From: Oscillospiraceae bacterium | Lineage (GTDB): Bacteria > Bacillota > Clostridia > Oscillospirales > Ruminococcaceae | Assembly (NCBI GenBank): GCA_018110985.1 | Contig: JAGAWT010000015.1 | Location: forward strand, 1 to 64,000 | DNA length: 64,000 bases | Direction: 5' to 3' | Part shown: positions 31,129 through 43,217 of the stretch, one piece after another | Position numbering within the stretch: position 1 is the first letter of the stretch | Layout of the letters: every line of letters starts with the position of its first letter | Notes under the pieces: model-generated | Databases searched by the model: none | The model's input: only the letters and a program-made list of their open reading frames with translations | Told to the model about the DNA's origin: nothing | Made by a program: the position numbers and the translations under genes

Positions 31129-33084
31129 CTATGAAAGCAGTTCATTGAACCTGTCAACAGGCAGGGGCTTTGAAAAATAGTAGCCCTGAAGGTAATCCGC
31201 TCCCATTTTTGTAAGTATTTCTATCTGGCTTGCGGTCTCCACGCCCTCTATCAGCACTCTGTAGCCCAGCTCCTTCATCATGCGCACACAGTTTTCCAGA
31301 AGGATATAGCCCTGCCTTGATTCTTCCGCTCCCCACAGGATGCTTTTGTCTATCTTGATAACATCCACTCCCAGTGAGAAAAGGGATGAAAGGTTGGAAT
31401 AGCCTGTGCCGAAATCATCTATGGAGAAAAGGAAGCCTTTTTCCTTCAGTCCCTTTATGACATTTCTCAGTAAGTCATAGTCGTTGGCGGCAACGGATTC
31501 CGTTATCTCAAAGTTGATAAAGTGCCTGTCTATGCCGAAGGTGCCCACAAGACGGTCTATATGATCCGCAAAGCCCTCCTTCATGCACTGGAGAACGGAA
31601 AGGTTCACATTTATGCTGTCAAGTCCAAGTTCGCCCGGCTTCCCCGTTGCCACATAGCGGCAGACCTCACAGAGGACGAACTCATCTATCTCATCTATGA
31701 GCCCCAGGCTCTCGGCTACGGGTATAAATTCATCCGGGTACAGATCCCCGAGCAAAGGGTCGTGCATCCTCAGCAGTGCCTCCGCCCCGTGGAGGCTTTT
31801 GTCAAGGTTGTAGGTGGGCTGGTAGTATACCTCGAAGCTGCCTCTTTCAAGCCCCTTTGATACAGCCGTTTCCACGGACATACGCCTTGTAAAAAGGCTC
31901 AGTCCCTCTCCGCAGATGAGCCCGTTTTCCGTGTTTGCGGGGAAAGGGCTGTCCGCAATGTAGAAAAGATCCTCTTCGCTCTGTGCATTTTTGGGTACAG
32001 AAGCACAGATGACCGTAACGGAAACGGGAATCTCCGCATCCCCCACTTTCCAGGGGGAATCAAAGCGTTCCCTTATGTGTCCGGAAAACTCCTCCGCCCA
32101 TCTTTCAGGACTTTCGCCGTGAATGTTTCCCGCAAATTCGTCGTATACCAGCAGGGCGAAGGTGGAGGGATTTGCAAGGTAGATGGAGTAGGAAGGCACC
32201 TTCGTGAGAAGGTAGCGCACTATCTCACGGTTCAGAAGGTCTCCGCTCTGCGACCCTGTGAGCCTTTGCACAAGACCGGGGTCGTGGAGCCTTACAAATA
32301 CTACGCTGAAATGTCTCCTGTTCCTGATACATCCGGCAACATCAAGCCGCAGAGCAGCTCTGTTGTAGCAGCCCGTTTCCACATTCATGCGCTCGTCCTC
32401 GTTTTCGATGACGGTCATTACCCCCGTGAAGCCCAGTGCTTCAAAAAGCACCTCTGCTCTGCACAGCGGGTACACAAGCTGTATGAGTATGCCCAGAAGA
32501 GCAAGGGCAAAGGAAAAGACCATCATGTACTTGTCACGGCGGGTAAGCACGTTCCAGGAGCGGATGAGAAGGTCAAAGGTGATGACGAAGGAAACAGCCG
32601 CACAGATGTATATGACCATTTCCAGCGGTCCCCTGTGGAATTCCCTGCTGCTGTCGTAGTACCAGGTGAGGTGAGTAAAGGGATTGACGATCACCACAGC
32701 CTCCGAAGCAATGAAAAGGAACAGGTTCAGCTTGTCCGTCCCCTTCCTGCTTTTCAGTGTGCCCTTTACTGAAAAGGTGACATCTATGACAGACGATACA
32801 TACCAGTAAAAAAGGGGGCACAGTGCAGAATGGGTGAAAAAGTAGATAAACCTTGTGATCCTGTAGACTTCAAAGGCATTATCCGAGGTGAGCCTCAGAC
32901 CTGTGTCTATGCCCCTGCCGATTATACCCGTGACAGAATTTATCATGAGTATGGCAAGTATCAGCATAAAGTACCTGTTCTGCTTTTTGCCCATCCTTCC
33001 AGCCAGAACGGAAAAGCAGATGTCTGCCAGACACAGAAGGAGTGCTGCGATGTTAAATCCGATACTTATCTGATTAAGATCCAT
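31129..33084 (-). CDS. Membrane c-di-GMP phosphodiesterase (EAL)
   Basis: The product is 651 residues. Seven or so N-terminal membrane helices (about 1-230) form a sensor module, followed by a degenerate GGDEF domain (about 240-390) and an EAL domain (about 400-650). All catalytic motifs are present: GAEALLRM, INVNLS, FEITES, SIDDFGTGYSN, VIKIDKS, LIEGVET and QGYYFSKPL. It should cleave c-di-GMP, unlike the defective protein at 401. TAAGGAGGG precedes the start. It is 90 bp after the MacB-core-like gene, so it may belong to the same operon. Confidence 0.92.
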   Translation of the reverse strand: MDLNQISIGFNIAALLLCLADICFSVLAGRMGKKQNRYFMLILAILMINSVTGIIGRGIDTGLRLTSDNAFEVYRITRFIYFFTHSALCPLFYWYVSSVIDVTFSVKGTLKSRKGTDKLNLFLFIASEAVVIVNPFTHLTWYYDSSREFHRGPLEMVIYICAAVSFVITFDLLIRSWNVLTRRDKYMMVFSFALALLGILIQLVYPLCRAEVLFEALGFTGVMTVIENEDERMNVETGCYNRAALRLDVAGCIRNRRHFSVVFVRLHDPGLVQRLTGSQSGDLLNREIVRYLLTKVPSYSIYLANPSTFALLVYDEFAGNIHGESPERWAEEFSGHIRERFDSPWKVGDAEIPVSVTVICASVPKNAQSEEDLFYIADSPFPANTENGLICGEGLSLFTRRMSVETAVSKGLERGSFEVYYQPTYNLDKSLHGAEALLRMHDPLLGDLYPDEFIPVAESLGLIDEIDEFVLCEVCRYVATGKPGELGLDSINVNLSVLQCMKEGFADHIDRLVGTFGIDRHFINFEITESVAANDYDLLRNVIKGLKEKGFLFSIDDFGTGYSNLSSLFSLGVDVIKIDKSILWGAEESRQGYILLENCVRMMKELGYRVLIEGVETASQIEILTKMGADYLQGYYFSKPLPVDRFNELLS

Positions 33085-33173: not shown

Positions 33174-34238
33174 CTACTGTACAGTGGGGTGTGTCTTTGC
33201 GTACAGCTTTTTGAGCCGTTTTTCTCTCTGTGCATCGAAGAAAGCGTAGATACGCTTTGCAATGGCACCCATGCCCTTTGCAGCGGCAAACATGAGAGCC
33301 ACAGTGGAGCAGGCTGTGATTATCAGCAGCAATGCGGTTGGAAATGCCAGTATCCTTGCCTCCAGCTCCGCTGCCCGAACGGTATTCTCCGACCAGGGGT
33401 AGGCAAAGGTGGAGATCCTCATCGCTGTGGTGGGGATGTCCCGAACGCCCTTTACAAGCTCTATAAGGTCAAAGCGCTTGGATTGTTCCACGGTGTTTCC
33501 CTTGTCGTACTGGGTCTTGAAGACCTCTTCTGCTACTATACGACCGAAATCCCTTACCTTTTCCGGTATACAGTATTCGTAGACCGACAGTGCGGAATAG
33601 GGTGAAAAGTCCTTCATTGCCTGATAAGGCACATACACATGGGGCTTTACCCCGTAGGCAGTCCTTGCGATCCTGTCCTGTATATCCGGAGCTCTCACCA
33701 CTCCCCTGATGCGGTAGTTCCTGCCGTTTATTAATACCTCTCTGCCCACGGTATCCATAGAACCGAACATATTCCATGAGGCGAGGTCGTCAAGAACGAT
33801 GATATCTATATTGGGGTCACTTTCGGAGAAGTAGGAGCCGTAGAGCAGCTCCTCGGGGTGGAAAACGAAGTAGTCTCCCCACACTCCTGTAGCTATAACA
33901 TCCGTGTAGACACGGCCGTTGTAGATCGAGGTCTCCGTTTCTGCATAGGCGCAGTCTATCCACTGTCTGCCCGCAGCATCATCCGAAAGGGCTGCCTGAT
34001 CCTTCAGGGTCTTTTCCATCTGCCTTCTCAGCATAAAGGCATCTACTTCGCTCTTTCCCTCAGATCCCGAAAAGTACACAGATTCCTGTGTGTACTTCAC
34101 ACTGCCGTTTCCCCAGCTGCTTGCAGCGCCGTCAAGGGCATAGTGTTCTTTGAGATAGTTTATCCTGAGCAGCGTACAGGCCGTAAAGATCAGGATAAGC
34201 ACATTTACGGCTATAAGTACCTTTATCTCTGTTTTCAT
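33174..34238 (-). CDS. MacB periplasmic-core-like membrane protein
   Basis: The product is 354 residues. One N-terminal membrane helix (IKVLIAVNVLILIFTACTLL) and one near the C-terminus (FPTALLLIITACSTVALMF) flank a large extracytoplasmic domain. That domain resembles the MacB core (GREVLINGRNYRIRGVVRAP). The four-helix FtsX permease and ATPase of real MacB are absent. It overlaps or abuts the adaptor gene; ATG at 34238 has AAGGGATC upstream, while ATG at 34256 overlaps the previous stop (TGATG). Confidence 0.75.
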   Translation of the reverse strand: MKTEIKVLIAVNVLILIFTACTLLRINYLKEHYALDGAASSWGNGSVKYTQESVYFSGSEGKSEVDAFMLRRQMEKTLKDQAALSDDAAGRQWIDCAYAETETSIYNGRVYTDVIATGVWGDYFVFHPEELLYGSYFSESDPNIDIIVLDDLASWNMFGSMDTVGREVLINGRNYRIRGVVRAPDIQDRIARTAYGVKPHVYVPYQAMKDFSPYSALSVYEYCIPEKVRDFGRIVAEEVFKTQYDKGNTVEQSKRFDLIELVKGVRDIPTTAMRISTFAYPWSENTVRAAELEARILAFPTALLLIITACSTVALMFAAAKGMGAIAKRIYAFFDAQREKRLKKLYAKTHPTVQ

Positions 34239-34255
34239 GCTTGATCCCTTCGGCA

Positions 34256-36382
34256 TCAGGTGCCGCTCTCCGCAAGCCTTACCTGTTCTCCCGGGCTTAC
34301 GGGCTTGTTGGTGGTGGTGATTATGAACTCACCGCCCGCAAGGCCGTTCACAGCGGTATTGTTGTCGTCCTGAGCTATCTTTTCAACGCTGACTCTCACA
34401 GCAGTGTACCTGTTGCCCAGAGGTGTCGCCTTTGACTCGAGAACAAAAACATAGCTGCCGTTTGAATCCTCTCTGAACGCCCTGTTGGGGATGACTGTGG
34501 AGTAGGACTGTCCCTTGCTGCCCATTGCCAGGGAAATGGTCTGACCCGGAGTGATATCCGTGCCCTTTATTGAGAACACAAGGATCTTCTGGGTCTGATT
34601 GTTGGGGTCGGACTTTATCTCCTTCAGGGTAGCCTCAAAGTCATCGCCGGTATACCAGCTGGTGATCTGCGCCATGTCCCCTACTCTTACCTTTCTTGCC
34701 TGATCCTGCTTGCAGGGCATCTCCACCTGTAAGCCCAGATCCACCACATTGATGGTGGCTATCAACTTTCCGGACTCGGTCTGGCTCCCCTCGGTAACAT
34801 TTATGTCTGCTATCTCTCCGGAGATCTTTGCGGTGATCTCCGTATCCACAGCCTTCTTTGCCTGGTTGCGGGCTATCTTCTCCTTGGCACGCTGTACAGC
34901 CTCATTGTAATCCATCTCTGCCTCGGACAGCTTGGAGCGCAGGGTGGTTATCTTGTCACGCTGCTTTTCTATCTCCCTTGCCTTGTCCCTTATCTGTGTC
35001 TGTCCGTCCTTGGCGTTCTTCTCGTTTGTTTTGGCATCGGTGTCGTATTTCTTTTCCAGTTCGGTCTCCAGCTTTGTGATGGCAAGCTCCTGATCCTGTA
35101 TCTTTGTCCTGAGCTGTGAAGCGTTCATAGTGACCGTGGTGCCCGCCTCCGTCTTCTTGTTGTTGGCGGCGTCCACCCTGGGCTGGAGTTCATATAATTC
35201 GTTTGTAAGGTTATCTATCCTCTTCTTGATGAGGAGCTTTATCTCACGCTTCAGGTCGGAAAGTGCCTTCTTTGCATCCTTCAGATCCTGATCCGCCTTC
35301 TTGACCTTCTTTGCCTCGGCAGCGATAAGATCCTTTGCCTGCTTGGACTTGGCATTCTTAACCATCAGCTCTTCTATCTCATCATGGAGCACACTTATCT
35401 GTGCCTCATAGCTTGCGATGTTGGAGTTGTAGGCGGAAACGGTGTTATAGTAGGAGTCCATGTCCTCGGGGTTCATGGCAGTGCCGTTTATCTTGGTGTA
35501 TTCAATATCTATCTTTCCCCTGAGAGCTGTTATCTCCTTGCGCTTTGCAGCGATGTTCTCATCCTGTGAAGCGGTATTTGAGGAGTTTTCGTCCGTAACC
35601 TTCTTCTGGTGCTCCTGTGCCTCTGCAAGGGCGTTCTCCATGCGGGTTATCTTGTCCTGTGCGGCGACTATGCGGTTGTATATGGGCTCGGAAAGATTGA
35701 GCATCTCCGTGGTGTCAACAGAGGAGAGCATATTGGTGTACTTTTCCTTCTGCCTTGTCTTTTCGTCCTGCTCCGCTTTCAGCTTGTTGTACTCCTCGGT
35801 GGCAACACTGAGGGGATCCTTCCCGCTCTCCACCAGTACCAGCAGATCCTTGTAGTCCTGCAGCTGCTTCTTTGCATTTTCTATCTCAAGGAGCTCGGAG
35901 CTGTAGTTGGTGGAGGTAGAGGTGTCAGGAGTGTCAAGCAGTTTCTGATAAGCATATTCAAGGTCGCTAAGGGTGATGAGAGCATCATCCACATTCTGCT
36001 TGGCTGTGTCAAGGGTGCTCTTGGCGGAGACCACCTTTGAATCATCCCTGTAATCTTCCGGATCCGCTTCATCGGTCTTGGGCAGCGCAAGCGTGAACAG
36101 CTTGTCCCCTGCCGTCACCTTGTCGCCCTTCTTTACCAGCACCTTCTCTATCTCACGGACAGAGTCTATCTTTACTTCGTATTTCTGGGCATAGTCCACT
36201 GTGCCGCTTCCCTTTATCTGCTCCGATACCGTGCCCTGATTGGCGTAGGTCGTGGATACCTGGGGCAGGGTGTAGTTCATGATGGTGTTTGAGAACAGGG
36301 TGAGCAGAAGCATTATGGACAGAAAGATGATAGCGATATTTTTTATCGTATCCTTCTTCTTTTTTGTCTCTTCCATTTCCAT
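34256..36382 (-). CDS. HlyD/MacA-like membrane fusion (adaptor) protein, very long coiled coil
   Basis: The product is 708 residues, about twice the length of a typical MacA. One N-terminal membrane anchor (NIAIIFLSIMLLLTLFSNTI) is followed by a lipoyl-like half (KGSGTVDYAQKYEVKID, VKKGDKVTAGDKLF). A charged alpha-helical hairpin spans about 110-500, then the second lipoyl half (AVDTEITAKISGEIADINV) and beta-barrel domains. In exporters such adaptors bridge transporter and envelope. The stop overlaps the start of the MacB-core-like gene. Confidence 0.88.
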   Translation of the reverse strand: MEMEETKKKKDTIKNIAIIFLSIMLLLTLFSNTIMNYTLPQVSTTYANQGTVSEQIKGSGTVDYAQKYEVKIDSVREIEKVLVKKGDKVTAGDKLFTLALPKTDEADPEDYRDDSKVVSAKSTLDTAKQNVDDALITLSDLEYAYQKLLDTPDTSTSTNYSSELLEIENAKKQLQDYKDLLVLVESGKDPLSVATEEYNKLKAEQDEKTRQKEKYTNMLSSVDTTEMLNLSEPIYNRIVAAQDKITRMENALAEAQEHQKKVTDENSSNTASQDENIAAKRKEITALRGKIDIEYTKINGTAMNPEDMDSYYNTVSAYNSNIASYEAQISVLHDEIEELMVKNAKSKQAKDLIAAEAKKVKKADQDLKDAKKALSDLKREIKLLIKKRIDNLTNELYELQPRVDAANNKKTEAGTTVTMNASQLRTKIQDQELAITKLETELEKKYDTDAKTNEKNAKDGQTQIRDKAREIEKQRDKITTLRSKLSEAEMDYNEAVQRAKEKIARNQAKKAVDTEITAKISGEIADINVTEGSQTESGKLIATINVVDLGLQVEMPCKQDQARKVRVGDMAQITSWYTGDDFEATLKEIKSDPNNQTQKILVFSIKGTDITPGQTISLAMGSKGQSYSTVIPNRAFREDSNGSYVFVLESKATPLGNRYTAVRVSVEKIAQDDNNTAVNGLAGGEFIITTTNKPVSPGEQVRLAESGT

Positions 36383-36470
36383 TGTAGTATATCCCTTCTT
36401 ATAGAGGCTGTAATTTAAGAGTCAAAAAGCAGTTATCGGAAAGCTGCGCATTGGCTGCAGGCACTGCCTG

Positions 36471-37595
36471 CTATTTCAGAGTAGCGGAGCTGGCGATGCC
36501 GTTTACGAGGGCATCCTCACCGTAGAGGAAAAGCAGCAGGGAGGGCACCATATAAATGACCGCCACCGCAAAGGCGAGCCCCGTGTCTCCGGAGTTTATC
36601 TTGGAGAGGAACACCGACAGGGGGTGCATGGCTTCGTCCTTCATAAGTATGAGGGGCTGCTCAACCATGTTCCAGTAGTCGATGAAGATCAGTATGGCGA
36701 CAGATGCAAGAGAGCTGTTCACCATAGGCATCACGATGCGGACGAAAATGTTGAATTCCGACGCACCGTCAAGGCGTGCAGCCTCATAGTAGACCTTCGG
36801 TATCCTCCTCATTTCCTTTGTCAGCAGGTATACCGCAAAGGGTGAGAAAATGCCCGGAAGTATGACCGCAAGGCGGGTGTTGAGTATCCCCAGCTTTTCG
36901 GATACCAGGTAATTGGGTACCAGTGTTACCTGATAGGGCATCAGCATAACTATGATGTACAGAAAGAACACTATTTCCTTGAGCCGTCCCGTGAGCCTTG
37001 AAAAGGAGTAGGAGGCTCCAAGAGCCACCAGCACCTGGAATATCACTATGGGGACCGTAAGTATGACAGAGTTCCAGAATTTGAAAAGGTAATCCGGGTT
37101 TTTCAGAAGAACGTCCCTGTACTGGGAAAAGCTCACAATGTCGGGGATGAATTTCAGGTTCACCACCTTGGACATAAAGACCTTTCCCGTCCCTGCGGCG
37201 GCGTTGAACACCACGCCGTAGTTGGAGTTTATCTCCGACTGGGACATAAAGGAGTTTGTGATGGTGAGCACCGTGGGCAGCAGGAAGATAACTGCCGAAA
37301 CTGCCGCAAAGACAGTGAGTATGCCTATACCCACCTTGGTGAAGAAAGCCCTCGGCCCCTGTATCTTCTTTCGCCTGTGAAAGCGTGCAAGGCTTTTCTT
37401 CTGTTCATCGGTAAGCTCCTTCGGAGCGTTTTCCTCCGCTTTCTTTTCCTCCTCCGCCTTCCGGGCTATTATAGCCTTTACGGGGCTTTCCGCAGCAGGC
37501 GTGACCGGCGGATCACCTGCCGGAGGTGCGGCAGATGCTGCCTTTTCGCCCTCCTCGGCAGCGGGAGCAGACTTTACAGTTTCTTCGGATGTCAT
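36471..37595 (-). CDS. MalG-type ABC permease with long N-terminal extension
   Basis: The product is 374 residues. An Ala/Pro/Glu-rich cytoplasmic tail (about 1-85) precedes six membrane helices. The EAA loop is EAARLDGASEFNIFVRIVMP, typical of carbohydrate importers (CUT1). Its ATG overlaps the stop of the MalF-type gene (ATGA). No ATPase gene is nearby, so a shared MsmK-type ATPase would be needed (inference). Confidence 0.88.
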   Translation of the reverse strand: MTSEETVKSAPAAEEGEKAASAAPPAGDPPVTPAAESPVKAIIARKAEEEKKAEENAPKELTDEQKKSLARFHRRKKIQGPRAFFTKVGIGILTVFAAVSAVIFLLPTVLTITNSFMSQSEINSNYGVVFNAAAGTGKVFMSKVVNLKFIPDIVSFSQYRDVLLKNPDYLFKFWNSVILTVPIVIFQVLVALGASYSFSRLTGRLKEIVFFLYIIVMLMPYQVTLVPNYLVSEKLGILNTRLAVILPGIFSPFAVYLLTKEMRRIPKVYYEAARLDGASEFNIFVRIVMPMVNSSLASVAILIFIDYWNMVEQPLILMKDEAMHPLSVFLSKINSGDTGLAFAVAVIYMVPSLLLFLYGEDALVNGIASSATLK

Positions 37596-38680
37596 TCTTC
37601 CACATCCTTTCCGAATATAGATTCTACCACGAAAAGCAGACCTATTATTACCACCATCGCCGCCGCCATGATTATCGCCGCCGATGACAGCTTCTGGTAA
37701 TCAAGGGAAAGGAAGGTGTTGTTCATGAAGTGCTGCAGCATATACAGGCCGTCATAGGGGTAGGAGCCCGTCAGCAGGTATATCTCTCTGAAAAGCTTGA
37801 ATGAGTTTATAAGAGAGAGTATGGTCACAAAAAGAAAGGTTGGGGAAAGATAGCGGAATTTGATGTGGAACATCCTCCACACAGGCCCCGCCCCTTCAAG
37901 ACTTGCCACCTCAAGCAGATCCTTGGGTATGTTGTTTATTCCCGACAGGAAAAGCACCATATTGTATCCCAGGTTTTTCCACAGAAACAGCAGTATTATG
38001 ACTATAAGGCATTTCGGTGACTTGAACCAGTCCACAGGCTCCCAGGATGAGAGCAGCTTTGACAGGATGGTGTTTGCCGTTCCCCTCTGGTCGAACACCA
38101 CCTGCCATATAAGGACTATGGAGGCGATAGGAACCATCATGGGTGAAATGAAGAATGTCCTGAAAAGGCTCTTTCCAGGTATCTTGGAATCAAGCAGCAC
38201 CGCCAGCAGCAGCGACAGCGCCACAGCCAGAGGCACCGCCGTGAAGGACAGCTTCATAGTGTTCACTGCCGCCTGGGTAAATGCCTTGTTGGCAAAGAGT
38301 GCCTTGTAGTTTGCAAGCCCGACAAAACTCTTGTTTATAGGGTTATCCAGCACCGAATAGTAAAAAACTATAATGAACGGCACTACGAAAAACACCATCA
38401 CACCTATGAGGGAGGGTATTACCAGCACTCTTGCAAAAAGCGTGTTGGGATCCGTGATGTCCTTTTTGCGGCGCACCTTTTTCAAGGTCTTTTTCCCTGT
38501 CTTCGGGTCCGTGACCTCTACATACCGCACCCTCGGAGGCTTTTTTTCCTTTTCCCTCTTTTCCTTTCCGGGAACAGAGGGAAAGTGGAGCTTTGCCTTT
38601 TTTTCGCCCTTGTCCCCGGCTTCCGGACCGGGCTTCGGGAGGGATGCCGCCCCGCTTTCTTTTTTCTCTTTATTATCCAT
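37592..38680 (-). CDS. MalF-type ABC permease with charged N-terminal extension
   Basis: The product is 362 residues. A Lys/Glu-rich tail (about 1-85) is followed by six membrane helices and the EAA-like loop EVASLEGAGPVWRMFHIKFR. It belongs to the CUT1 sugar permease family. It is the first gene of the operon with the MalG-type permease, adaptor and MacB-core-like protein. AGGTAAC precedes the ATG. Confidence 0.88.
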   Translation of the reverse strand: MDNKEKKESGAASLPKPGPEAGDKGEKKAKLHFPSVPGKEKREKEKKPPRVRYVEVTDPKTGKKTLKKVRRKKDITDPNTLFARVLVIPSLIGVMVFFVVPFIIVFYYSVLDNPINKSFVGLANYKALFANKAFTQAAVNTMKLSFTAVPLAVALSLLLAVLLDSKIPGKSLFRTFFISPMMVPIASIVLIWQVVFDQRGTANTILSKLLSSWEPVDWFKSPKCLIVIILLFLWKNLGYNMVLFLSGINNIPKDLLEVASLEGAGPVWRMFHIKFRYLSPTFLFVTILSLINSFKLFREIYLLTGSYPYDGLYMLQHFMNNTFLSLDYQKLSSAAIIMAAAMVVIIGLLFVVESIFGKDVEE

Positions 38681-39768: not shown

Positions 39769-39823
39769 TTACAGATTGTAATTGACTATAATTGGAAAAG
39801 AGGAAAATGTTACAGATTGTAAT
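39769..39823 (+). promoter_or_regulatory. Two identical operator-like dyads before the surface-protein gene
   Basis: TTACAGATTGTAAT occurs exactly at 39769-39782 and 39810-39823, 41 bp apart. The core is a perfect dyad, TTACA-N3-TGTAA. The first copy lies in the spacer just upstream of a TATAAT (39787-39792) that lacks a good -35. The rest of 39563-39768 is AT-rich with nothing recognised. Confidence 0.5.
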
Positions 39824-39890
39824 CATTGTTTCCGATTTGATATTAGATGCTGCCGCACGGAAGGGTGACGGGCAGCACGGGAGGATCATT

Positions 39891-42800
39891 ATGAAGACCA
39901 GAAAACAAACGGTAAGACAGTGTGTGTCATTTGCCGCAGCCCTTTTGATGGCGTTTTCTGCTTGCGGCGGTGCATTGCCGCAGATCACCGGCACAGGTAT
40001 ATCCGTAGCCGTATCCGCAGAGGCTGCTAAGGGCTCTTACACCTTTGAGAACGGGAGCGGTATCCTCACTTTCCAGGGCGGTACCTTCTCGGACTATGAA
40101 AGCCTTACACACGACACAGCAAATCCCAGGACCTATGAGAACTATATGTACGACGTAGACAGGTTCCTGGTACAGGAGATCCACAATAACGGCGGCTCTT
40201 CCACCAAGTTCAGCGGAGACATGAGCCGTCTGTTCAAGGGAATGAAGAACGCCTACACCATTGACCTTTCGGGGCTCGACTCCACGGATGTCACCTGCTA
40301 CAATGAGATGTTCAAGGGCTGCAACAATCTCCAGACCCTGAACATCGGCTCCTTCAACGTGACACGTTCTCTTATGTACAACGGCAACAATGCCGAGATG
40401 TTCGACTTTGCCTACGGCGGAAAGTCCAAGATAAAGTCTCTTACACTGCCCGCATGGTTCAAGGTGACCACCGACCTTAAGCTCCCCAACATCGATGAGA
40501 ATTATCTGGGCTGGGCAAAGGCAGGCACCACCAAGATAATCTCCGGCAGAGGTCAGTACGCAGACTTCGTTGCAGACACTGCAGGCGAATATGTTCGTAT
40601 ATCCAAGGAGCAGTTCAGAGAGGATGCAGGCACCTATTCCTTCAATGAGAATACGGGTGAGCTGGTCATCACAGGCGGTTCCTTCTCCAACTACGGTCTC
40701 AGGCACGTAGAAGGTCATACCTATGAAGAATGGTTCTATGACATCTACAAGCCCCTCATAAAGTCCGTAAGGGTGAATGCTTCCGCAGGTGCAGAGCTTT
40801 CCGGCAACTGCACGGGTATGTTCTCCAACATGGAAAACTGCACATCCATAGATCTTACGGGTCTTGCTACCGGCAAGGTCTACAACTTCAATGAGATGTT
40901 TGCAAACAACCCTGCCCTCACCAACCTGAAGGTGCCCATCGTAACCAGCAATGCCACATCCATGGCATCCATGTTCTACAACTGCCCCAAGGTATCTACA
41001 CTTGACATCTCCTCCTTCTATATGGACAAGGTGACAAGCAAGAGCGAGATGCTGGCACTGGCTCCCATGAACGGCTACTCCTCCATCACCACTCTCAAGC
41101 TCCCCAGGAACTTCAAGGTGACAAAGAACGAGTACCTCCCCAACAAGGACACAAACTATGTGGGCTGGGCAAAGAGCGGCAGCAAGTCCGTAGTCAGCGG
41201 TTCAAAGGACTATGCGGTATTCACCTCCGACAATGCAAATATCGAGACCTATACAAGAGTAAAGACCGATGAGCCCGATTCCAATAACAAGTCCATCCAG
41301 CTCTACTACTTTGCAAACGGTTCCTACTATCCTGTTCCCGACGGGATGAACACCACAGGAGTTACACTTTACAAGCTGGTAAACGGTGAGTATGTAAGGT
41401 ATCAGAACACCGATCAGCTCTACTACTACTCCAACGGCAGCTATTATCCCGTTCCCTCCGGAATGGACACCAATGGCATGACCCTTTACAAGCTGGTGAA
41501 CGGTGTTTATCAGGTATACAGCCAGGCAAGCTCCACTCAGCTCTACTACTATTCCAACGGTTCCTACTATCCTGTATACACAGGCATGAACACCAACGGG
41601 ATAACTCTTTACAAGCTGGTGAACGGTGTGTACACCATTTACAGCCAGCCCAATACCAATCAGCTCTACTATTACCTGAACGGTTCCTACTTCCCTGTTT
41701 ACACGGGAATGAACACCAACGGCATGACCCTTTACAGACTGGTCAACGGCGTTTATCAGGTATACAATCAGGGCAATACCAATCAGCTCTACTACTATTC
41801 CAACGGCAGGTACTATCCCGTATATACAGGCATGAACACCAACGGCTTGACACTGTACCGCTATGTTAACGGTCAGTATCAGGTATACAGCCAGGCTAAT
41901 TCCAACCAGCTGTACTACTACTCCAACGGCAGCTACTATCCTGTATACTCCGGCATGAACACCAACGGCTTGACGCTGTACCGCTATGTGAACGGTCAGT
42001 ATCAGGTGTACAGCCAGGCTAATTCCAACCAGCTGTACTACTACTCCAACGGCAGCTATTATCCCGTATACTCCGGAATGAACACCAGCGGTATGACACT
42101 GTACCGTTATGTGAACGGTCAGTATCAGGTATACAACGGCACCAATGAGCAGCTCTACTACCTGAACAACGGTGTTTACTATCCTGTTACCACAGGAATG
42201 AATACCAACGGCATGACTCTGTACCGCTTCGTGAACGGTCAGTATCAGATCTACCAGAACGGCAGCACCAATGAGCAGCTCTATTATCTCAACAACGGCA
42301 TCTACTATCCCGTTACCACCGGTATGAACACCAACGGCATGACCCTTTATCGTTTTGCCAACGGTCAGTATCAGGTATACAGGAACGCCGTTTCCAATGA
42401 ACAGCTCTACTATCTCAACAACGGTGTGTACTATCCTGTCACTGCCGGCATGAACACCAACGGCATGACCCTTTATCGCTATGCCAACGGTCAGTACAGC
42501 ATTTACAACAACAGCAATAACGGTACCCTGAACCTCACCGGCAAGAACTATGTTCTCGTCAACGGTCAGTACTATGAGATAACCTCCAGCACTACCGCTT
42601 CCGACGGCACTCAGTATGTATTTGCCAACAACAGGTACTACAACACTAATCAGGTGCAGATAGTTTCCGCCGACAAGCTCCCCAAGAGCGCTTCCGCAAC
42701 GGGGAACGCAACAGGCATCACTTACTACGCTTCCAACGGCAAGCTCCACATAACATGGGACAACGAGCCCGCAGCTACGAGCTACATCCTCTATCAGGTG

Positions 42801-43217
42801 AAGTCCGACGGCTACAAGAAGATAAAGGAGACCACTTCCTCCACCGCAACTCTCGGCAATGCCAAGGGCGGCAAGACCTACGAAGTAGTGGTTTGCCCCG
42901 TTATCAACGGCAATATCTCCAGCCCTGACAACGCTCAGAGGGTAACTGTGAAGGTACCCGTTACCAAGCCCGTAGTAACAGCAAAGGTAAGCGGTTCCTC
43001 CGTAATGCTCTCCTGGGAGACCGTTCCCAACGCAGAAAAGTATCGTGTATACAAGTACGTTGACGGTTCCCTCAAGAAGATGGGAGAGACCAAGAAGCTC
43101 AATGTCAAGATCACAAGCCTTGCAAAGGGCAAGTACACCTTCGCAGTAAAGGCTTATGTGAACGGCAAGTGGACTACGGTCACCAAGAGCGACCTTGCAG
43201 CTGCCACCGTCAAGTAG
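39891..43217 (+). CDS. Large secreted protein with DUF285 repeats, Tyr-rich repeats and Fn3 domains
   Basis: The product is 1108 residues. The signal peptide (MKTRKQTVRQCVSFAAALLM) is followed by two copies of a DUF285/BspA-like leucine-rich module with preceding strand (about 45-450; MFSNMENCTSIDLTGL, MASMFYNCPKVSTLDISSF). Ten Tyr-rich repeats of about 40 residues occupy about 465-880. Two Fn3-like domains close the protein (about 935-1108). No LPXTG anchor or dockerin is seen. Secreted and probably wall- or glycan-associated (inference). GGGAGGATC precedes the ATG at 39891. Confidence 0.9.
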   Translation: MKTRKQTVRQCVSFAAALLMAFSACGGALPQITGTGISVAVSAEAAKGSYTFENGSGILTFQGGTFSDYESLTHDTANPRTYENYMYDVDRFLVQEIHNNGGSSTKFSGDMSRLFKGMKNAYTIDLSGLDSTDVTCYNEMFKGCNNLQTLNIGSFNVTRSLMYNGNNAEMFDFAYGGKSKIKSLTLPAWFKVTTDLKLPNIDENYLGWAKAGTTKIISGRGQYADFVADTAGEYVRISKEQFREDAGTYSFNENTGELVITGGSFSNYGLRHVEGHTYEEWFYDIYKPLIKSVRVNASAGAELSGNCTGMFSNMENCTSIDLTGLATGKVYNFNEMFANNPALTNLKVPIVTSNATSMASMFYNCPKVSTLDISSFYMDKVTSKSEMLALAPMNGYSSITTLKLPRNFKVTKNEYLPNKDTNYVGWAKSGSKSVVSGSKDYAVFTSDNANIETYTRVKTDEPDSNNKSIQLYYFANGSYYPVPDGMNTTGVTLYKLVNGEYVRYQNTDQLYYYSNGSYYPVPSGMDTNGMTLYKLVNGVYQVYSQASSTQLYYYSNGSYYPVYTGMNTNGITLYKLVNGVYTIYSQPNTNQLYYYLNGSYFPVYTGMNTNGMTLYRLVNGVYQVYNQGNTNQLYYYSNGRYYPVYTGMNTNGLTLYRYVNGQYQVYSQANSNQLYYYSNGSYYPVYSGMNTNGLTLYRYVNGQYQVYSQANSNQLYYYSNGSYYPVYSGMNTSGMTLYRYVNGQYQVYNGTNEQLYYLNNGVYYPVTTGMNTNGMTLYRFVNGQYQIYQNGSTNEQLYYLNNGIYYPVTTGMNTNGMTLYRFANGQYQVYRNAVSNEQLYYLNNGVYYPVTAGMNTNGMTLYRYANGQYSIYNNSNNGTLNLTGKNYVLVNGQYYEITSSTTASDGTQYVFANNRYYNTNQVQIVSADKLPKSASATGNATGITYYASNGKLHITWDNEPAATSYILYQVKSDGYKKIKETTSSTATLGNAKGGKTYEVVVCPVINGNISSPDNAQRVTVKVPVTKPVVTAKVSGSSVMLSWETVPNAEKYRVYKYVDGSLKKMGETKKLNVKITSLAKGKYTFAVKAYVNGKWTTVTKSDLAAATVK
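41298..42522 (+). repeat. Ten tandem about 120-bp repeats encoding Tyr-rich units
   Basis: Each unit has the pattern QLYYYSNGSYYPV, GMNTNGMTLYRYVNG and QYQVY plus a variable Asn/Ser/Gln linker. Units 5, 6 and 7 are nearly identical in DNA; units 8-10 form a second subgroup with YYLNNGVYYPV. A degenerate eleventh unit follows. Confidence 0.9.

Follow-up and report, generated by a model that had tools for sequence, protein, structure and literature searches.

The four genes described here lie in a 64,000-nucleotide stretch of DNA from an Oscillospiraceae bacterium (the window). They are a genuine conserved unit and probably belong to an ABC importer of the CUT1 type that is driven by ATP and carries an additional conserved extracytoplasmic module, made of an HlyD-type adaptor and a MacB-core protein. 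This reading draws on the gene set and order, the folds, common descent, the types of ATPase and binding protein and a set of gene fusions, all established by sequence comparison.

Table 1. Genes of the operon in the window
Protein	Length (aa)	Positions	Strand	Pfam match (E-value)
PermF, CUT1/MalF-like permease	362	37592..38680	-	BPD_transp_1 (8.9e-16)
PermG, CUT1/MalG-like permease	374	36471..37595	-	BPD_transp_1 (7e-11)
HlyD/MacA-type membrane-anchored adaptor	708	34256..36382	-	HlyD_3 (1.2e-9), Biotin_lipoyl_2 (1.9e-8)
MacB-core protein	360	33174..34256	-	MacB_PCD (3.6e-9)

The sequence-only reading had described four tightly overlapping genes for two sugar-importer permeases with long charged N-terminal tails, a HlyD/MacA-like adaptor with a long coil and a MacB core lacking FtsX helices. 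The overlaps were found between PermF and PermG (4 bp) and between HlyD and MacB-core (1 bp), whereas PermG and HlyD are separated by 88 bp. The protein assignments were borne out, every Pfam match (BPD_transp_1 twice, HlyD_3 with the lipoyl halves, MacB_PCD) exceeding its own curated cut-off. Upstream, the operon is set apart from a 190-aa gene by a terminator-like stretch and some 200 bp. In the surroundings, a gene for an EAL-domain (c-di-GMP phosphodiesterase-like) protein (31129-33084, minus strand) starts 89 bp downstream of MacB-core, and a 1141-aa secreted protein (39792-43217, plus strand) contains DUF285/BspA-like repeats together with many near-identical ~40-aa YYYSNGSYYPVYSGMNTNG repeats.

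PermF and PermG form the paired BPD_transp_1 permeases of a CUT1 importer, and the EAA coupling loop is present in both. The loop of PermG is canonical (EAARLDGASEFNIFVRIVMP) and conserved over the 80 rows of the alignment; that of PermF is modified yet recognisable (EVA..LE(G/S)A....IK.RY), and its K and R do not vary across the 80 rows. PermG gave PDB profile matches to AlgM2, SugB and MalG, and PermF matched the NCBIfam UgpA-like family at 7.9e-29, below its cut-off. The charged tails preceding the transmembrane part are long in the window (86 aa in PermF, 87 aa in PermG) but this length is not conserved, the ortholog medians being ~39 and ~26 residues, respectively. A tree of 40 MalG-type permeases placed one branch (support 99/96) between the 31 adaptor-linked sequences and the nine others, eight of which come from the genome of the window; these nine form long branches whose own placement is unsure. 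Adaptor linkage required a single change in all (100%) bootstrap trees, and the adaptor-linked permeases appear to share one origin.

The adaptor has all the parts of an HlyD/RND-type membrane fusion protein: an N-terminal transmembrane segment (residues 10-35), lipoyl and beta-barrel halves and, between the lipoyl halves, an alpha-helical hairpin of 408 residues. Its AlphaFold model (pLDDT 84.8) placed helices at 108-511, with a pTM of 0.38 that makes the long-range geometry unreliable. Foldseek matched the model to AcrA, MacA, EmrA and Spr0693, and the NCBIfam RND_mfp score was 78.7 bits, below the 94.9 cut-off.

The model of the MacB-core protein (pLDDT 89.2) consists of TM1, the MacB periplasmic core and a long C-terminal helix holding TM2. 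MacB (1.2e-10) and YknZ (3.5e-9) were the best PDB matches in Foldseek, LolCDE and YbbAP being matched as well. The periplasmic core fold of the MacB family was thus recovered by Pfam, PDB profile and Foldseek, but the four transmembrane helices and the FtsX-like C-terminal half of that family were not: the protein has two transmembrane helices and no Pfam match to FtsX, and TM3/TM4 and the ATPase domain were absent by Pfam, transmembrane prediction and the model. Two transmembrane helices were also predicted in 58 of 65 near orthologs, as against about 4-6 in the MacB-like proteins of distant members. This suggests that the MacB-core of the window's clade is a reduced ancestral MacB-like permease, the direction of the change being not polarised. 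No ATPase of the MacB/LolD type is fused to it or adjacent in the window operon.

Outside the window, the adaptor was present in 17 of the 20 genus genomes, with the same four-gene order where contigs were long enough. A scan with one genome per species returned at least 587 relatives of PermG, and the best 80 kept loci were analysed. They came from Ruminococcus, other Oscillospiraceae and Lachnospiraceae, including isolates of Kineothrix alysoides, Butyrivibrio and Parablautia. The gene order proposed for checking across relatives proved nearly fixed: (SBP>)PermF>PermG>HlyD>MacB-core(>SBP) prevailed in these 80 loci, with rare exceptions and with incomplete orders mostly at contig ends. Median gaps were -4 bp for PermF-PermG, 30 bp for PermG-HlyD, 12 bp for HlyD-MacB-core and -1.5 bp for MacB-core-binding protein. 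A swapped order, PermF>PermG>MacB-core>HlyD, was seen once in the 80 loci (L168, 5172-8640). Both findings named in advance as fatal to a hybrid complex were looked for: no MacB ATPase/FtsX pair was present in the homologous clusters, and the permeases were not separate from the adaptor, the adaptor-linked ones being one clade. With the nearly fixed order in 80 loci and the single permease clade, the proposed hybrid envelope transporter stands.

Class-wide, MacB-core matches below 1e-60 were confined to a few families, with weaker matches in further families, so the system is widespread but patchy. A tblastn search of MacB-core against plasmids gave zero matches, hence no sign of plasmid spread. 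The five proteins (binding protein included) co-diverge, with pairwise-distance correlations of r 0.83-0.92 over 48 loci. Vertical descent alone also yields high r, so this co-divergence backs co-inheritance rather than contact.

The claim that no ATPase or binding protein is present held for the operon and failed for the genome, which encodes both in trans; in relatives they occur in cis. The cognate binding protein in relatives is a ~780-aa lipoprotein encoded after or before the operon. A family-1/8 solute-binding protein makes up its C-terminal half (SBP_bac_1 in 32/36 members, SBP_bac_8 in 22/36), and its N-terminal half weakly resembles propellers. Most relatives thus possess the solute-binding protein of a CUT1 importer in cis, and the window genome has two tandem homologs on another contig (C13:11181-16067), 48% identical mutually and 38-39% identical to the operon-linked protein. 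Such homologs were found in 18/20 genus genomes. In three loci (L132, L141, L162), MacB-core and the binding protein are fused into one polypeptide of 1078-1093 aa. The fusions are topologically consistent, the former lipoprotein signal being a plausible third membrane segment, and they tie the MacB-core to the importer's binding protein.

The MalK/UgpC-type ATPase of a CUT1 importer was likewise found. A single MalK-type ATPase bearing an OB_MalK domain is encoded in the window genome; it is an orphan outside any importer operon and is named UgpC by NCBIfam (1.8e-145). In two distant operons, the ATPase is a gene of the operon itself: in L124 a MalK/UgpC-type ATPase is the first gene and overlaps PermF by 4 bp, and in L241, which belongs to another family, the operon ends with the gene of a 365-aa UgpC-type ATPase, which overlaps MacB-core. 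Each shares 54% identity with that orphan ATPase, and both exceed the NCBIfam UgpC cut-off. An OB_MalK ATPase was present in 23 of the 24 system-bearing genomes examined. Together, the cis ATPases, the fusions and this near-universal presence identify the energy source. A MalK/UgpC-type ATPase is well supported in this role, and the label "ATPase-less" has to be abandoned. The window's own system is split over at least three genomic places. The sole system-bearing genome without an OB_MalK match, G019 of the genus, encodes several homologs of the binding protein; perhaps this genome is incomplete or relies on a divergent ATPase.

It is highly improbable that the operon holds two machines, an ordinary sugar importer and an HlyD-MacB-core pair driven by a MacB-type ATPase from elsewhere. 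YknXYZ-type systems do occur in Firmicutes, and the multitask ATPase is evidence that in-trans partners are common. However, one permease clade keeps the adaptor across several families, all five proteins co-diverge, MacB-core is fused to the importer's binding protein, and MacB-core is without the helices used for coupling to a MacB-type ATPase. Relatives were also tested for a linked MacB-type ATPase, and the idea was rejected. Among 16 ATPase-like ORFs near the 80 loci, the single one abutting the operon as a subunit is MalK-type, none of the MacB type does so, and the others nearby (e.g., L126, L144) resemble different ABC families by inspection.

In the single-importer reading, to which we return, import is a well-supported though inferred direction and the substrate is presumably an oligosaccharide or similar. 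We infer a physical complex and, with it, the mechanism beyond ATP-driven import. The substrate would be captured by the lipoprotein with its propeller-like N-terminal half and family-1/8 solute-binding half (trans here, usually cis), PermF/PermG would form the channel, and the shared MalK/UgpC-type ATPase would engage their EAA loops and power import. The bitopic MacB-core beside the channel could serve as the platform for a ring of HlyD-type adaptors, as MacB does for MacA, a presumed stoichiometry. The hairpin of the adaptor, which may pass through the wall, could hold the substrate and the binding proteins or guide them to the channel.

The relatives belong to the Clostridia, which are considered monoderm. 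With ~200 residues per arm, the hairpin would reach ~30 nm if straight (0.15 nm per residue), which is comparable to the thickness of a thick cell wall, and at that length it could cross a monoderm wall. We tentatively raise the possibility of a wall-spanning importer, in which giant HlyD-type adaptors, arranged in a ring on platforms of MacB-core, would form a guide through the thick wall and deliver large ligands, or binding proteins held by a tether, to the MalFG-type channel. The coil between the lipoyl halves varies from 219 to 474 residues among orthologs, a spread that speaks against a ruler of fixed length across the wall. If true, this would be the tripartite efflux architecture turned to the import direction in monoderm bacteria. 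The movement of large substrates through the monoderm wall becomes testable in the culturable Kineothrix alysoides, Butyrivibrio and Parablautia and in the genetically tractable C. thermocellum.

The homologs of HlyD and MacB-core elsewhere are parts of export systems, which counts against the importer reading. An export or surface-assembly machine, in which the adaptor and MacB-core take the leading part while the permeases and ATPase push a product out or do mechanical work, would fit the Foldseek matches (MacB, YknZ, LolCDE, YbbAP), these parts being typical of exporters and mechanotransmission systems. Yet we consider it quite unlikely: importer types were found for the permeases, the ATPase and the binding protein alike, most operons include the binding protein, which is in some cases fused to MacB-core, and the window MacB-core has neither TM3/TM4 nor an ATPase. 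The secretion complex suggested by the sequence-only reading therefore gives way, in view of the importer-type ATPase and binding lipoprotein, to an importer with an extracytoplasmic module. Exporters and mechanotransmission systems are where HlyD-type adaptors and MacB cores are known, a division challenged by a widespread importer clade of gut and rumen bacteria that is almost never found without them.

Compared with known systems, the importer shares with CUT1 importers (MalFGK2, UgpABCE, MsmEFGK with shared MsmK/MsmX) the EAA-loop BPD_transp_1 permease pair, the family-1/8 binding lipoprotein and the shared MalK/UgpC-type ATPase. It differs from them in the obligate HlyD-type adaptor and MacB-core partner, in the modified EAA loop of PermF and in the propeller-like N-terminal half of the binding protein. 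With MacAB-TolC, YknWXYZ and Spr0693-0695 it shares the adaptor and MacB periplasmic core folds (Pfam, PDB profile, Foldseek); unlike them, it lacks the MacB ATPase and TM3/TM4 and is paired with importer permeases, and the hairpin of the window adaptor is several times longer. No description of the system was found in a literature search combining HlyD, MacB, MalF/sugar permease and binding protein. Two hits were discarded: PMC5780487 concerns a Prevotella FtsX protein, and "MACB" in PMC8579813 refers to strain names, not the MacB protein.

Among proteins of solved structure, CbpC of C. thermocellum is the nearest relative of the binding-protein domain (2.9e-45). A locus from the class-wide search with 100% identity to the solved CbpC chain (L238) encodes, in one direction, CbpC, a MoxR-like ORF, PermF, PermG, an HlyD/AcrA-like adaptor and a 473-aa MacB_PCD protein. 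By this gene content, transporter C of C. thermocellum (CbpC, Cthe_2125-2128) is a distant member of the system. It differs from the window in a CbpC of 460 aa without the propeller-like half of the ~780-aa lipoprotein, in the MoxR-like ORF between CbpC and PermF, in about six rather than two predicted transmembrane helices in the MacB-like protein and in a much shorter adaptor, which reads as two ORFs (300 + 152 aa; L238 4633-5986, minus strand). The adaptor may be interrupted in this record, which could bear on the missing mutant phenotype described below.

An 'acrA' gene is listed in the figure 1 legend of PMC9601137 among the sugar-transporter clusters of C. thermocellum, and the adaptor is not discussed as a component of transporter C in the part of that paper considered here. 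An adaptor-bearing importer would account for this gene and possibly for the puzzling behaviour of CbpC. The importer clade is real and conserved, its export-type extracytoplasmic module is near-obligate, and a distant member has been studied without, in the same part of the paper, discussion of the module. The CbpC pocket was reported there to be blocked by a loop, with the tested sugars unbound, and glucose, cellobiose and Avicel supported normal growth of the transporter C mutant (PMC9601137); these reports count against the importer reading. They contradict an earlier study, as tabulated in PMC11212667, in which CbpC bound cello-oligosaccharide with sub-micromolar affinity.

The blocked pocket and the lack of sugar binding in that one study (PMC9601137) would also suit a sensor rather than a nutrient transporter, with the complex detecting an extracellular or wall-derived ligand and signalling, and with the binding protein and MacB-core passing a state on to the permeases or nearby regulators. 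Neighbouring genes lend it some colour: histidine-kinase-like genes near several distant-clade operons (L081, L082, L084-L086), the EAL gene 89 bp after the window operon, a sensor-GGDEF-type gene after some Lachnospiraceae operons (e.g., L132 16174-17448) and the position of the Lachnospiraceae locus amid housekeeping rather than glycan-degradation genes. Sensing is nevertheless unlikely, since the EAA loops and the MalK/UgpC ATPase are kept and would be superfluous for a pure sensor, the neighbouring regulators vary between clades and signalling domains were found in none of the five proteins.

For the importer with its extracytoplasmic module, a role in a glycan-utilisation locus was unsupported: judged from sequence starts and lengths, the conserved neighbours of the Lachnospiraceae loci look housekeeping-like. 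In many Lachnospiraceae (flanks of L130-L183), the conserved upstream genes, judged from sequence, resemble those for DNA polymerase I, dephospho-CoA kinase, FtsA, a metallo-hydrolase and ACT/DUF711 proteins, and the downstream ones, judged in the same way, those for phosphotransacetylase/acetate kinase.
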